From a virus, in the IMG/VR virus record IMGVR_UViG_3300044966_000229, positions 1 to 29,738 of that record: 29,738 bases of DNA; one strand, 5' to 3'. A program made the position numbers and the translations under genes. This document shows positions 1,779 to 9,559 of this stretch, piece after piece. Position 1 is the stretch's first letter, and each line of letters begins with the position of its first letter. Under the pieces are notes generated by a model that was not told the DNA's origin, searched no databases, and saw nothing but the letters and a program-made list of their open reading frames with translations.

Positions 1779-2129
1779 ATGTATGCTTTACCAGCCAACC
1801 CGACAGCCCGCGACATCATTGAGCGGTCGATAGTCTGCCATGATGAAACATTCCGCGCAGCCCTAATTCAACAGGCAGAAGTGCACGATACGTCTGCCAT
1901 GCTTACACCTAACGAAAGAGCGCGCCAAGGCGCTATGGCGTCATTTAAGGCCTGCTTGAGCGCATACGACATTATAGGGCGCGACGATATGACACCTTAT
2001 GAAAAGGCGCTCTTTATCGGCTCTGATTGCGGCACAATGGTAATTGCGCTCAATATCGCCTGTAAGTTGCAATGCCTGCCTCCTCATATTCGGACGCAAG
2101 CTGCAATCGCATGGGGAGAGGCAGCCTAA
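1779..2129 (+). CDS. Hypothetical protein, first gene of the plus-strand small-gene operon
   Basis: A 116-aa protein that I do not recognise. It is mostly helical by composition, with no membrane segment or metal-binding cluster. ATG 1779 is chosen over an in-frame GTG at 1773 because AAAGGAG then lies nine bases upstream of the ATG, but only three upstream of the GTG. It opens the operon downstream of the repeat region. The stop is followed immediately by the first copy of the 67-bp intercistronic element. Confidence 0.75.
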   Translation: MYALPANPTARDIIERSIVCHDETFRAALIQQAEVHDTSAMLTPNERARQGAMASFKACLSAYDIIGRDDMTPYEKALFIGSDCGTMVIALNIACKLQCLPPHIRTQAAIAWGEAA

Positions 2130-2131
2130 CG

Positions 2132-2199
2132 CCATATTAGCCGCGCAGCCACCCCTGCGCGGCCTTTATGGCGCTAGTGCCAACAACAGGAGTGAGTGA
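2132..2199 (+). repeat. Intercistronic element, copy 1 (two dyads plus ribosome-binding site)
   Basis: About 67 bp repeated almost exactly at 3231-3297. It contains a perfect 8-bp stem, CCGCGCAG (2141-2148) and CTGCGCGG (2155-2162), with a six-base loop. A second near-palindrome, TGGCGCTAGTGCCA, follows, and then the GGAGTGAGTG ribosome-binding site of the next gene. There is no U-tract after the hairpin, so it is more likely an mRNA processing or stability element than a terminator. Confidence 0.8.
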
Positions 2200-2201
2200 C
2201 C

Positions 2202-2513
2202 ATGACAATTACCGCATTACAATACGCCACCCGTCACGAAGCGCGGATTGCCCGTAAAATCGTCAAGGATGCCTTGGCGAAGGGTTGGACTGTTTCCGTT
2301 TATGATGGTGAAGAATGGACTGTGAAGCGCAGCGCCGACAGTCGCGCAATACTAGATGCCTTGTGCACCACCGACAGCGATGTCCTGCACATGCGCGATG
2401 CCTCTGACCAGCCTGTCGGCAACATTTGGCTCGTATGGGGCAATGACGAAGATGTCATTAGCGACCACACCGACAGCGAGGCAATGGCCGACTTTATGGC
2501 TGGCCGTTACTAA
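2202..2513 (+). CDS. Conserved phage protein of unknown function
   Basis: A 103-aa protein. The segments LAKGWTVSVYDGEEWTVKRS and ISDHTD resemble a widespread unnamed phage protein family that I recall only as hypothetical. ATG 2202 has AGGAG nine bases upstream, while the GTG at 2196 is too close to it. The gene directly follows copy 1 of the intercistronic element. It looks soluble and probably alpha/beta. Function is unknown. Confidence 0.8.
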   Translation: MTITALQYATRHEARIARKIVKDALAKGWTVSVYDGEEWTVKRSADSRAILDALCTTDSDVLHMRDASDQPVGNIWLVWGNDEDVISDHTDSEAMADFMAGRY

Positions 2514-2537
2514 TCAATTCAACAGGAGTGAGATCCC

Positions 2538-2732
2538 ATGAAAAACACCGAAAGCTATTACGAAGTATCCGCCGATTGGCTCAAAGCCTGTGGCTTGGGG
2601 AATGGCGAAGCAGCGCAAGCGTTTCCTGTTGTCCGCTCATACATGGCTGGGCATCTGCCGATGGTAGTCGTTCGGCTTGATAATGGCCGCGAATGGGAAG
2701 TGATTGCATCATGGCGCGGACGTTATGTCTGA
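2538..2732 (+). CDS. Hypothetical protein
   Basis: A 64-aa unrecognised protein with mixed composition and no membrane segment. It ends in an aromatic and arginine-rich stretch (REWEVIASWRGRYV). The start is supported by AGGAGTGAG ending about seven bases before the ATG. A hairpin built from the same 8-bp arms as the neighbouring repeats follows the stop. Confidence 0.7.
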   Translation: MKNTESYYEVSADWLKACGLGNGEAAQAFPVVRSYMAGHLPMVVVRLDNGREWEVIASWRGRYV

Positions 2733-2739
2733 TTTTATC

Positions 2740-2764
2740 CTGCGCGGTGCAGCTCGCCGCGCAG
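2740..2764 (+). repeat. Intercistronic hairpin with the same arms in inverted order
   Basis: CTGCGCGG (2740-2747) and CCGCGCAG (2757-2764) form a perfect 8-bp stem with a nine-base loop. These are the same arm sequences as at 2141-2162 and 3240-3261 but in swapped order. The CTTTT after it is a weak U-tract. The next gene's GGAGTGAGTG site follows at once. Confidence 0.7.
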
Positions 2765-2788
2765 ACCTTTTCAACTGGAGTGAGTGAA

Positions 2789-3004
2789 ATGACAAATACC
2801 TTCAACATCGGTGACCGCGTTATGGCCCGTATATTTGGCAGCGAATATTATCCCGCGACTGTTGTCAGTCCTGTGGGCTGGTATTTTATCCCGTCAATGT
2901 GCTATCCCGTAGAGTTTGACCGCAAGCCTGTCACCGCAAGCGGCACATTAAACAGCCGCCGCGTCACAGTCCTAAAATGTGACGTAAAGGCGGTGCAAGC
3001 ATGA
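2789..3004 (+). CDS. Hypothetical protein
   Basis: A 71-aa protein, beta-rich by composition. The opening (FNIGDRVMARIFGSEYYPAT) resembles the first strands of SH3- or Tudor-like barrels, which often begin with a GDRV motif. That is only a fold suggestion. ATG 2789 is chosen because GGAGTGAG precedes it; the longer frame back to 2693 runs through the previous gene and the hairpin. The end overlaps the next gene as ATGA. Confidence 0.7.
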   Translation: MTNTFNIGDRVMARIFGSEYYPATVVSPVGWYFIPSMCYPVEFDRKPVTASGTLNSRRVTVLKCDVKAVQA

Positions 3005-3228
3005 CGCAGACAGTTTCACAAGATTATCTTGACGGCATCAGCGAGGGCCGCGCCATTCTGAAAGCATGGAAAGCGGAGGGCATGGCCGATACGGACTTGC
3101 CAGCCCTCGCACAAGCGCACCTTGACAACATAAAGCGCACGGCGCGTTCATTTGACGCGCAATCGCCGGTCGGCCAACTGTTGCGCGGAGAGCGCGACTT
3201 TTGGCGCAACAAATTAAAGCAACGCTAA
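3001..3228 (+). CDS. Hypothetical helical protein
   Basis: A 75-aa protein that starts inside the stop of the previous gene (ATGA), so it is probably translationally coupled. Its composition is strongly helical and charged. It ends with a basic RDFWRNKLKQR tail. No known motif is visible. The second copy of the 67-bp intercistronic element follows it. Confidence 0.7.
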   Translation: MTQTVSQDYLDGISEGRAILKAWKAEGMADTDLPALAQAHLDNIKRTARSFDAQSPVGQLLRGERDFWRNKLKQR

Positions 3229-3230
3229 CA

Positions 3231-3297
3231 CCATATTAGCCGCGCAGCTATCCCTGCGCGGCATTTATGGCGCTAGTGCCAACAACGGAGTGAGTGA
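3231..3297 (+). repeat. Intercistronic element, copy 2
   Basis: Near-identical to 2132-2199, with only a few substitutions and one short deletion. The stem is CCGCGCAG (3240-3247) with CTGCGCGG (3254-3261). The changes CCACCC to CTATCC fall in the loop and leave both arms intact, which fits selection on the hairpin. It ends in GGAGTGAGTG upstream of the next gene. Confidence 0.8.
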
Positions 3298-3298
3298 A

Positions 3299-3472
3299 AT
3301 GGAATATTTGACGCAAACAGAAGCAGCGTATCTTGCGGGCATATTGGCTGGTGAACAATCCACCGACACCCACGTCAATAATGAGCGCGACCGGCTGATA
3401 GCCAAATTGTTACGCCTTAAGATGTGGGCAGAAAAAGAGGATGCTGCCCGCGCACGTCTAAACGCGCTTTAA
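3299..3472 (+). CDS. Hypothetical helical protein
   Basis: A 57-aa unrecognised protein. It is helical and ends in a charged segment (KMWAEKEDAARARLNAL). ATG 3299 is chosen over the upstream GTG because GGAGTGAG then sits at normal distance. It directly follows copy 2 of the intercistronic element. Confidence 0.7.
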   Translation: MEYLTQTEAAYLAGILAGEQSTDTHVNNERDRLIAKLLRLKMWAEKEDAARARLNAL

Positions 3473-7158: not shown

Positions 7159-7216
7159 AAAAAGGCCAACGGAGCAACATTGACCTTGTCCTTATATCAT
7201 CGCAACCAAATGGTTG

Positions 7217-9559
7217 TCAATTCTTGCCTATCGACGGCATGATACTTGACTTAGGCAACTCTTCTGCCAAGCGGCGCAAGTCTGATTTGTTCCGCTGGCG
7301 CACGTCAGGCGCGGCGAAGATGTGCTTCTTTGTGGGATACTCCACAGAGTGAACGCGGCCTATGTCAACCCATCCAGCTTCCTTTAGAGCGTGTAGGAGC
7401 GCCGCCTGTGGTATCTTCACGCCAGCGGGCACGTTGATTGCCAGCGCGTCACAGATGCGGTGGAACGGCCCACCAATGACGCCATTGGCGAACACACCCG
7501 CCTTCTCGCGCATCATGTCTACCAGATAGCTTTCTGCGACGCTCATGCCATGCTCGACCATGTTCAGCTTCCATTCGGTCACTGGCGGCGCAGCCGCAGG
7601 GTTGAACGCCGACACGTCGCGTTGATGGAGCCAAGCGGCGCACTTCTCATAGCCGCCGTTCTTATACCACGCCCACAGCTTGTCCGCTGCGGCTGGAGCC
7701 ATGCGCGGCGCGTGTGTCCACACGCAGAACCACCGCCTGTCCTGTGTCGGCAGCGTGATGGGCAGCGGGTCGTTCGTGTAAGCGATGACCATCAGGCGGT
7801 TCACCAGTTCGTAAGGGTGCATCCCCTTGCGGTTGACTGTCAACGTCTCAGGCGGCGCAGCGATGAGCGGCTTCAGCTTGTTAGCCATAGCGCGGCGCTC
7901 TCGTGCCTCTGGCTCCTTCAATTCGTTCAGGATGACAACCTCAGCCTCAAGCGCGTAGCCCCACTGGCTTTCCAACCCGCCAGCCTCAATGACTGACCTG
8001 TTGCGCCAATGCTGGCCACCCAGCGCCCACAGGAACGGCTGGAACATACTGTCCTTACCGACGCCTTCATCGCCGCCGATTAGGATGGCATGGTTAATCT
8101 TGACGTTGGGGTGCTGTATCTTGAACGCCATAGCGTTAAGGATGTGGTCTAACTCCTCATCGTCCGCAATCAAATCGCGGCAATGCTGAAGCCACGGCTC
8201 AACGTCATGGTCGGCGATTACATCGCTGTCCGACACGTCAGGGCGTCCGTCTGTCCACCTGTTGCCGTAGACAAGCCCGTCACGCGTCACCAACACGTCA
8301 TCGCCAGCGGCGAACGTCACCGCCGACAGCGCAGGAGCGCCGCGGTCTTGACGGCGCTCATCATAATAGATGGACGCCTGCACACGCTGCGCTTTCTTGT
8401 GGATGGAGCGGCAGTCAATGTGACGGAACAGCGCGTTAAAGACGTTGCGGGCTATCTCTTGGCGCGTCACCATGTCGAAATAGCTGTCATCGGACTGGAT
8501 ATAAGCGAAACGCTCGAACCATTCGTTTTGTTCCAGCCGTCCAGCTTCTTTCTTTTCGACCTCACGCACACGCGCTGCGGCCTCATCCGGAAAGGCATCA
8601 TTCGGCGCGATCTTGTCATACATCGACGCCAGACGTTCGGCGATGAGTTCGTCACGCAATCCCGGAGTTACCTTCGGGCCACCATTGTTGTCTACCCAAT
8701 CAAGAAAGGCGCGGCTGTCTAGGTCTTGGCAATGCCCGTGGTAGCAGCAAAACGAGCGGTCGAGCGGCTTGTAGCGCGCCTCAACCATGCCGTCGCTGTG
8801 TTGCTCATAGTTAGGACAGACGATGCCGCACCAGCCGTCAGCATTAGGTGCGCTAAGAACTAGGCTGTTTTCGTTTAGCCATGTCAGGACGTTGTCAAGG
8901 CCATTGTCGCGCAACTGCACCGTTTTATACTCGGCTGTGTCGCCTTCCTGTGGCGTAACACCCAGCGCCGCACAGATTTTATCCAGCGTGTATTCACGCT
9001 CAGGGTGGAACTCAACCAGCCGCGCCGGAAAGTTATCGCGTCCGCGCTTCAAATTGACGCTGCCGGGAATACGGCAGTTGCGGACAGCGTTCGTCGCGCC
9101 GGGGTCAGTGTAGCCAGCGTCCGCGATGGCTTTGATGGCCGCGCAGAAGTCGCCTTTCTTTGGCTGTTCGCTGAACGCGTAGCCCCACTGGAACGAACCT
9201 TCGCTGGTTTCCAACACCCATGTCGGGTCAAGCGGCGGCTCTTTTGACTTCGTGCCAACGTCATCCAGCATCATGAACAGGACATATTCGACGTTGCTCG
9301 ACTTGGCGGACGGCTTGCCGTCTACAAAGCGGTCAACGATGAACGAGCCTGTGTTGATGTACCACGCCTCGCCTTCTTTGATGCGCGCCTTGTCAGGCAT
9401 GAACGCAGGAAAGGTGGCGGACGGCACGCCGTCAGCATGGTAGATGATGCCGCCATCAACGTCATACTTGGGCTTCTGACGCAACAACAGCGCCGTCTCG
9501 CCAGTTTCGCTGGCTAGGCCGGTTACATAATCTATAAACTTGATGCGATCCTCACTCAT
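7217..9559 (-). CDS. Primase fused to SF3-type helicase (VapE/DUF5906-like)
   Basis: A 780-aa replication protein. The N-terminal part looks like an archaeo-eukaryotic (RepB-like) primase: MLDDVGTK with acidic residues at 99-100, SFQWGY near 122-127, and RIPGSVN near 163-169. Cysteines and histidines at 244, 248, 254 and 271-277 may bind zinc. The C-terminal part is an SF3 helicase-like ATPase: Walker A GGDEGVGKDS (495-504), Walker B VVILNEL (541-547), YTN (594-596) and DRR (607-609). ATG 9559 is chosen because AAGGAG lies six bases upstream; ATG 9580 would overlap the polymerase gene. It should prime and unwind the phage DNA for the adjacent polymerase. It is the last gene of its operon. Confidence 0.85.
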   Translation of the reverse strand: MSEDRIKFIDYVTGLASETGETALLLRQKPKYDVDGGIIYHADGVPSATFPAFMPDKARIKEGEAWYINTGSFIVDRFVDGKPSAKSSNVEYVLFMMLDDVGTKSKEPPLDPTWVLETSEGSFQWGYAFSEQPKKGDFCAAIKAIADAGYTDPGATNAVRNCRIPGSVNLKRGRDNFPARLVEFHPEREYTLDKICAALGVTPQEGDTAEYKTVQLRDNGLDNVLTWLNENSLVLSAPNADGWCGIVCPNYEQHSDGMVEARYKPLDRSFCCYHGHCQDLDSRAFLDWVDNNGGPKVTPGLRDELIAERLASMYDKIAPNDAFPDEAAARVREVEKKEAGRLEQNEWFERFAYIQSDDSYFDMVTRQEIARNVFNALFRHIDCRSIHKKAQRVQASIYYDERRQDRGAPALSAVTFAAGDDVLVTRDGLVYGNRWTDGRPDVSDSDVIADHDVEPWLQHCRDLIADDEELDHILNAMAFKIQHPNVKINHAILIGGDEGVGKDSMFQPFLWALGGQHWRNRSVIEAGGLESQWGYALEAEVVILNELKEPEARERRAMANKLKPLIAAPPETLTVNRKGMHPYELVNRLMVIAYTNDPLPITLPTQDRRWFCVWTHAPRMAPAAADKLWAWYKNGGYEKCAAWLHQRDVSAFNPAAAPPVTEWKLNMVEHGMSVAESYLVDMMREKAGVFANGVIGGPFHRICDALAINVPAGVKIPQAALLHALKEAGWVDIGRVHSVEYPTKKHIFAAPDVRQRNKSDLRRLAEELPKSSIMPSIGKN

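Follow-up and report, generated by a model that had tools for sequence, protein, structure and literature searches.

In this work, we have analysed a short non-coding element that occurs twice between early genes of a virus, in a window of 29,738 nucleotides (the whole stretch of DNA studied here, positions 1 to 29,738 of IMG/VR record IMGVR_UViG_3300044966_000229). Our results show that this element is a structured RNA lying between genes in the early operons of phages, and that it is a member of a previously uncatalogued family of folded intercistronic RNAs in viruses of bacteria. The element is under selection as RNA, on the basis of covariation and of GNRA loops. At orthologous junctions it is swapped with type II hammerhead ribozymes (three replacements), and by its niche the type II hammerhead is its nearest relative. 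The element probably helps to cut the long viral message into single-gene pieces, and with moderate confidence we read it as an intercistronic RNA-processing element that would be interchangeable with type II hammerheads.

The duplicated element and its predicted fold

The repeat extends over positions 2126-2199 and 3225-3297 of the window, with 93.2% identity over 74 columns (blastn E about 1e-24), and chance is far too small to account for such a similarity. It contains a direct repeat of 62 nt with 94% identity (2126-2187 and 3225-3286), in which the 56-nt element is embedded (Table 1). A preliminary description had recognised this near-identical duplication and had placed it at 2132-2199 and 3231-3297; the repeat is real, but its left edge lies six bases earlier, with the stop codons included. 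Both copies start at the 5΄ end with CTAAC, and the TAA within this motif is the stop codon of the upstream gene. The copies differ in a G/A base at 2131/3230, in two loop bases, in one internal-loop base and in one A deleted before the ribosome-binding site (RBS). The same description had reported intact arms and substitutions restricted to the loop or the region between dyads; the 9-bp distal arms are indeed intact. The proteins flanking the two copies are unrelated (best blastp E 0.32), as had been said of the genes that follow them, and the next start codon lies 18-20 nt past the element, after an RBS of sequence GGAGTGAG.

The predicted fold is one long hairpin, consisting of an outer helix that includes the stop codon, a 3x3 internal loop, a 9-bp distal hairpin and an unpaired tail, TGCCAA. 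Each copy had been described as holding two dyads, which in the predicted fold are parts of this single hairpin, one being an outer arm and the other a distal arm. When 59-nt pieces were compared with dinucleotide shuffles, they folded better than almost all of these, with z values of -5.6 (copy 1) and -3.9 (copy 2).

Table 1. Coordinates of the features discussed; positions refer to the window unless a contig is named.
Feature	Position	Strand	Evidence
Element copy 1 (CTAACGCC ... TGGCGCTAGTGCC)	2126-2181	+	repeat, fold, model R1 77.8 bits
Element copy 2	3225-3280	+	repeat, fold, model R1 81.5 bits
TAA stop of gene 1779-2129, paired in outer helix of copy 1	2127-2129	+	sequence, ORF list, fold
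TAA stop of gene 3001-3228, paired in outer helix of copy 2	3226-3228	+	sequence, ORF list, fold
Outer helix 5΄ arm, copy 1, pairs with 2167-2177	2126-2136	+	fold, covariation
Outer helix 3΄ arm, copy 1	2167-2177	+	fold, covariation
3x3 internal loop, copy 1	2137-2139 / 2164-2166	+	fold
Distal hairpin copy 1, 9-bp stem (2140-2148 / 2155-2163), loop CCACCC	2140-2163	+	fold
Conserved unpaired tail TGCCAA, copy 1	2178-2183	+	conservation in inner-hairpin scan
Outer helix 5΄ arm, copy 2, pairs with 3266-3276, one extra mismatch	3225-3235	+	fold
Outer helix 3΄ arm, copy 2	3266-3276	+	fold
Distal hairpin copy 2, loop CTATCC	3239-3262	+	fold
Conserved unpaired tail TGCCAA, copy 2	3277-3282	+	conservation in inner-hairpin scan
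RBS GGAGTGAG of gene 2202-2513	2189-2196	+	7 copies in window, 0.48 expected
RBS GGAGTGAG of gene 3299-3472	3287-3294	+	7 copies in window, 0.48 expected
Gene upstream of copy 1, 116 aa, no family	1779-2129	+	
Gene downstream of copy 1, PHROG 5680/22565, unknown function	2202-2513	+	
Gene upstream of copy 2, 75 aa, no family	3001-3228	+	
Gene downstream of copy 2, 57 aa, no family	3299-3472	+	
RF02276-type hammerhead	L077 8432-8492		
RF02276-type hammerhead	L099 3459-3519		
RF02276-type hammerhead	L151 1152-1218		
RF02276-type hammerhead	L198 2070-2141		

Other sequences of this region deserve mention. The extended RBS GGAGTGAG occurs seven times in the window (at 1766, 2189, 2525, 2777, 3287, 3483 and 7137; 0.5 expected), and six of these copies precede early genes, between 1766 and 3490. 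At 2740-2764 there is a third hairpin between genes, CTGCGCGG...CCGCGCAG, 7 nt past a stop codon and followed by GGAGTGAG; it has the layout of the element, a different sequence and none of the element's ends. The non-coding stretch before the early genes (1142-1530) carries ten CTGGGTCAT/CTGGGCAAT repeats on both strands (0.8 expected), which could be the iterons of an origin or an operator array.

Extent of the family and selection on RNA

The 3΄ motif was found at 36 loci of viral contigs, almost all of which show the same arrangement behind different genes, and a gapped pattern gave at least 118; a pattern for the inner hairpin only, which makes no demand on the ends and therefore measures their conservation, gave 94. 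One scan required TAAC, and a test of stop-codon usage was hence left aside. The family comprises at least 63 distinct versions in at least about 119 contexts, mostly viral contigs; nearly all of its sequences are metagenomic, with simple gene calls made by script. Their neighbours belong to at least some 43 upstream and at least 23 downstream protein families in many combinations, and across the roughly 119 contexts listed these neighbours are unrelated, which bears out the earlier view that the non-coding element, and not the genes, is the conserved unit. The distal hairpin has several sequences (types I, II and others) and one common shape. The type I and type II models find each other at E values of 1e-6 to 1e-3, the sense strand scoring higher than the antisense strand, and they therefore form one family.

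No Rfam family was found in the whole window, nor for the element at permissive thresholds (E up to 10). Phage and plasmid records gave no DNA match to the element, and it is absent from the relatives DSL-LC05 and ctNMl277. Cellular genomes gave 16 pattern matches, most of them chance by eye; one, in Sphingobium, has the right fold (model E 7.5e-4), in 1 of 398 genomes of the family, and since a backward control gives as many matches or more, it is only a possible case. A contig of Sphingobium fluviale with phage-like genes (L141, 3166-3228, minus strand) probably holds a copy, whose distal stem is unrelated, and may hint at sphingomonads among the hosts. There is mostly one copy per genome in the podovirus lineage of the window (roughly 38 kb), several copies occur in some integrase-bearing records of 42-58 kb, and with model R2 divergent copies also came to light in phages that bear an integrase.

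The preliminary description had proposed a search of relatives for covariation, and compensatory changes were found. The widest alignment, which includes the divergent R2 copies, was fitted to the model, leans to the model's structure and includes one antisense hit among its rows; in it, 10 of the 16 pairs show two-sided changes, and 96.2% of cells are paired, compared with 84.5% after shuffling and 30-49% with slid partners. Here the stop codon's second base and its partner covary, changing from A-U to G-C. In the type II alignment three pairs change on both sides, and in neither this nor the type I alignment did any of 500 shuffles reach the observed covariation score. The terminal loops of type II are nearly all GNRA tetraloops (GCAA, GCGA, GUAA, GAAA) whose closing pair switches between A-U and G-C, and the standard-helix cells of the sense strand hold G.U 28 times versus A.C 11 times. 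The closing pairs C-G and U-A at the base are invariant in 38 of 38. The 3x3 internal loop reads UUA/NUU in type I versus RGA/CGA in types II and III, which are also the only ones to have the RGA/CGA loop together with a 3΄ bulge; the sequence of the outer helix drifts, and no single set of unpaired core bases, of the kind that a ribozyme core would normally provide, can be seen in all copies. The suggestion that the repeat might act in RNA processing, stability or translation was thus right about its RNA nature, as covariation and GNRA loops show, but too vague, and it had overlooked the stop codon inside the structure, the single long hairpin, the wide phage family and the replacement by hammerheads.

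The variety of neighbours could also be explained by a DNA recombination joint, either a boundary sequence or a site like the integron attC, that shuffles early genes, an explanation that we consider very improbable. The gene at 1779-2129 and the element recur with 95% identity in an unrelated contig (L002), where the flanks differ and the match ends at the edge of the element, and where upstream genes are homologous, the genes that follow them differ in 199 of 235 comparisons at the element versus 4028 of 7386 elsewhere. Averaged per gene cluster, however, this excess is small (0.76 versus 0.59), and a recombination hot spot, favoured by the raw counts and only weakly by the cluster averages, was discarded. 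Integron attC sites hold the stop codon of the cassette in the 5΄ half of the core and have conserved ends around a variable stem, as the element does. Unlike attC (RYYYAAC ... GTTRRRY plus a tyrosine recombinase), the element has GCTAGTG at the place of the right core, with no GTT core; PF00589 was found in 6 of 33 records, leaving 27 without a tyrosine recombinase, and the single copy usual in the window's lineage also speaks against a joint. An attC-like single-stranded DNA site was first suggested by folding of the bottom strand, the reverse strand being the more stable in 59 of the 63 versions, but the GNRA loops, the sense-strand wobble pairs and the covariation are signatures of RNA.

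The ends of the element are strongly conserved. In the inner-hairpin scan, the C and T that precede the remaining stop-codon bases, the C after the stop codon and TGGC..TAG were invariant (75 of 75), and TAA, TAG and TGA interchange while the flanking C and T are kept. Among the 119 contexts listed, the CTrrC codon is the in-frame stop of an ORF of at least 40 aa in 108, the gene stops elsewhere in about 8%, and the start codon lies at +18 to +22 in most. Pairing of the stop codon and the constant distance to the start could control termination-reinitiation or coupling of two cistrons, and the interchange of stop codons and the covariation of their second base agree with such a translational role, which we nevertheless regard as quite unlikely. 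The RBS of copy 1 is unpaired in the predicted folds, the 8% of contexts in which the gene stops elsewhere do not fit, and hammerheads overlap the stop codon likewise, so that the overlap may only reflect compact packing. Stop-codon readthrough, which a stop followed by C and a downstream hairpin might recall, was rejected because with element lengths of 51 and 53-57 the downstream frame falls in all phases.

Exchange with type II hammerhead ribozymes

The upstream cluster U1 (L067, L010, L009 and others) consists of fast-diverging proteins of 190-230 aa that by eye resemble sliding clamps; one that was tested has no Pfam match, and their genes have the element on one or both sides. Relatives of the clamp-like protein that often precedes the element were collected without selecting for the element. 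Close relatives of this gene mostly carry the element, and the more distant ones have hammerheads, promoters or terminators. In L198 and L199, a match to RF02276 (38.9 bits) lies a few bases past the stop codon of the clamp-like gene. L203 and L204 have a sub-threshold match (27 bits) at the junction after this gene, and in L152 the element lies between homologues of the same two genes, with 56-59% identity downstream. The operon of L165 contains, in order, an element (7210-7260), two hammerheads (7771-7834 and 8228-8292), a divergent element (8632-8689) and another hammerhead (9172-9235). The gene after the first hammerhead belongs to the MSLNW family, whose genes have the element in L036, L059, L077, L086, L099 and L107, and the gene after the second is a homologue (47%, E 7e-29) of the window gene 2202-2513, which is preceded by the element. 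In L151 a single gene is preceded by the element and followed by a hammerhead, and both RNAs also share a contig in L077, L099, L059 and L107. The strongest cases come from a handful of contigs (L165/L160, L198/L199, L203/L204 and L151), some of them near-identical pairs. In the window's own lineage most phages carry the element and lack a hammerhead, so that the case for co-occurrence comes mainly from a second lineage, which bears an integrase.

When type II hammerheads were scanned for separately, 141 phage sites were obtained, 120 of which have an ORF stop 3-12 bases before CGAAAC (58 at -4 and 27 at -5). The next start lies about 20-30 nt past the core, a layout like that of the element, and the overlap with the stop codon suggests that translation could gate hammerhead folding. 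Hammerheads that flank genes of native polycistronic RNAs of ~2 kb self-cleave in vitro, and one arrangement does so in vivo (PMC3088659). Like the element, type II hammerheads (RF02276) occur in phage operons with a stop codon at their 5΄ edge and 15-30 nt to the next start, often flanking single genes or short blocks (PMC3088659), and the element shares this intercistronic niche around small genes down to the same junctions and the same operons. It is not itself a type II hammerhead. RF02276 has no match in the window at the gathering score and none on the element at E up to 10, the core motifs (GAAA, stem III, NUH, stem I, CUGANGA) are absent, as is any GAAA, CUGAUGA or cleavage triplet arrangement, and the element is one long hairpin whereas the hammerhead has three stems.

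At some orthologous junctions the place is taken by plain hairpins, promoters or intrinsic terminators, which indicates that the site tolerates several solutions. These occupants bear on the idea that the element is a transcription signal, namely an intrinsic terminator, an attenuator or an antitermination RNA of the early operon. Two findings would suit such a signal: the element lies close to where the early gene run begins (a median of two genes in, with a crude gene caller), and distant relatives have terminators and promoter-hairpins at the same junction. We find it very improbable: the distal stem is followed by CTTTATGG or CGAGGATGG, with no U tract, a terminator scan did not list the element, and the genes run on in the same direction directly after it.

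In contigs L215-L236 (L227 and L232, for example), promoter-like TTGAC...TATACT sites, in which a perfect GC-rich hairpin (TTGACGGGCGGCACATGCCGCCCGTATACT) forms the spacer, are found just after the clamp-like gene, and they are reminiscent of the promoter stem-loops of T4-type phages. The PeSL elements of these phages are stem-loop cassettes at variable early gene boundaries that include an early promoter. The element resembles PeSLs as a stem-loop at early gene boundaries and differs from them in that a scan found no promoter-like site inside it.

A protective or insulating hairpin, which would stabilise the 3΄ end of the upstream message or separate the cistrons without being a cleavage site itself, is an alternative explanation that we consider unlikely. 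The family folds are stable (mostly -21 to -36 kcal/mol), related junctions bear unrelated plain hairpins, and the hairpin at 2740-2764 of the window has the same layout with another sequence, all of which would suit such a role. A plain stabiliser, however, needs neither invariant C-U/A-G closing pairs, nor a fixed 3x3 loop, nor an embedded stop codon, and it leaves the exchange with a self-cleaving ribozyme unexplained.

Proposed function and comparison with known elements

We propose that the element would do the job of the hammerhead, so that the long early mRNA would be cut between cistrons. Since the base helix includes the paired stop codon, a ribosome terminating there would melt this helix or hold it open, and the RNA would fold and be cut only once the stop codon had been freed. 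The cutting agent could be the element RNA itself, or else a nuclease, for example RNase III or RNase E. The RNase III hairpins of the T7 early region are intercistronic structures of about 50-60 nt with an internal loop, lying between early genes. By description, the element is like them in place, size and internal loop, although the strong conservation of its base helix and tail would not be expected of RNase III sites.

It is also conceivable, if doubtful, that the element represents an undescribed class of small self-cleaving ribozymes, a hairpin of about 55 nt that would cut polycistronic mRNA beside the stop codon and whose folding would be gated by the ribosome. The odds of a catalytic core are raised by the invariance of the closing pairs C-G and U-A and, in types II and III, by the RGA/CGA loop and its 3΄ bulge, whereas the internal-loop difference between type I and types II/III and the drift of the outer helix lower the odds of a single one. 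In the catalytic loop of twister-sister and TS-like ribozymes, GCUC^AA or AU stands opposite GCNAG. The 3΄ strand of the element's base helix, GCUAG, is identical to the short strand of the catalytic internal loop described for the LINE-1 ribozyme (PMC11620745). In the opposite strand, however, the element has CU-AAC, with the equivalents of C10A and A12C, changes that abolish LINE-1 ribozyme activity (PMC11620745); in addition, the position of the cleavage-site A varies and there is no SL4. With these inactivating-equivalent changes in the long strand and no cmscan match, a twister-sister or TS-like identity was rejected. Twister, a double pseudoknot, was also discarded, as cmscan gave no match and the GNRA terminal loops of type II cannot form the pseudoknot.

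Why phages put self-cleaving ribozymes between genes is an open question (PMC6155905, PMC3088659), and a second RNA family in the same places of the same operons gives a direct handle on it. Either the element is a new ribozyme class, found by the guilt-by-association logic that earlier gave twister-sister, pistol and hatchet (PMC6154101), or a different kind of mRNA processing can stand in for self-cleavage. The overlap with the stop codon, common to the element and the hammerhead, suggests that translation termination and mRNA cutting are linked in a way that can be tested.

Among described phage repeats, the ESAS of cluster K mycobacteriophages are inverted repeats with a variable spacer, just upstream of some non-structural gene starts and of unknown function (PMC3203893). 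The element is like them in being an inverted repeat upstream of start codons. ESAS differ in sequence and are tied to the 13-bp SAS GGGATAGGAGCCC, and neither a stop codon in the repeat nor exchange with a ribozyme has been described for them (PMC3203893). A SAS/ESAS identity (the SAS plus 17-bp inverted repeats) was rejected, as the RBS of the element is GGAGTGAG and its arms have another sequence. Finally, in L013, L016 and L028 a different perfect hairpin, CACCGGGTGACAATCCCGTCACCCGGTG, follows a homologue of the window gene 1779-2129; it recurs at other junctions and is possibly a second family of intercistronic hairpins.
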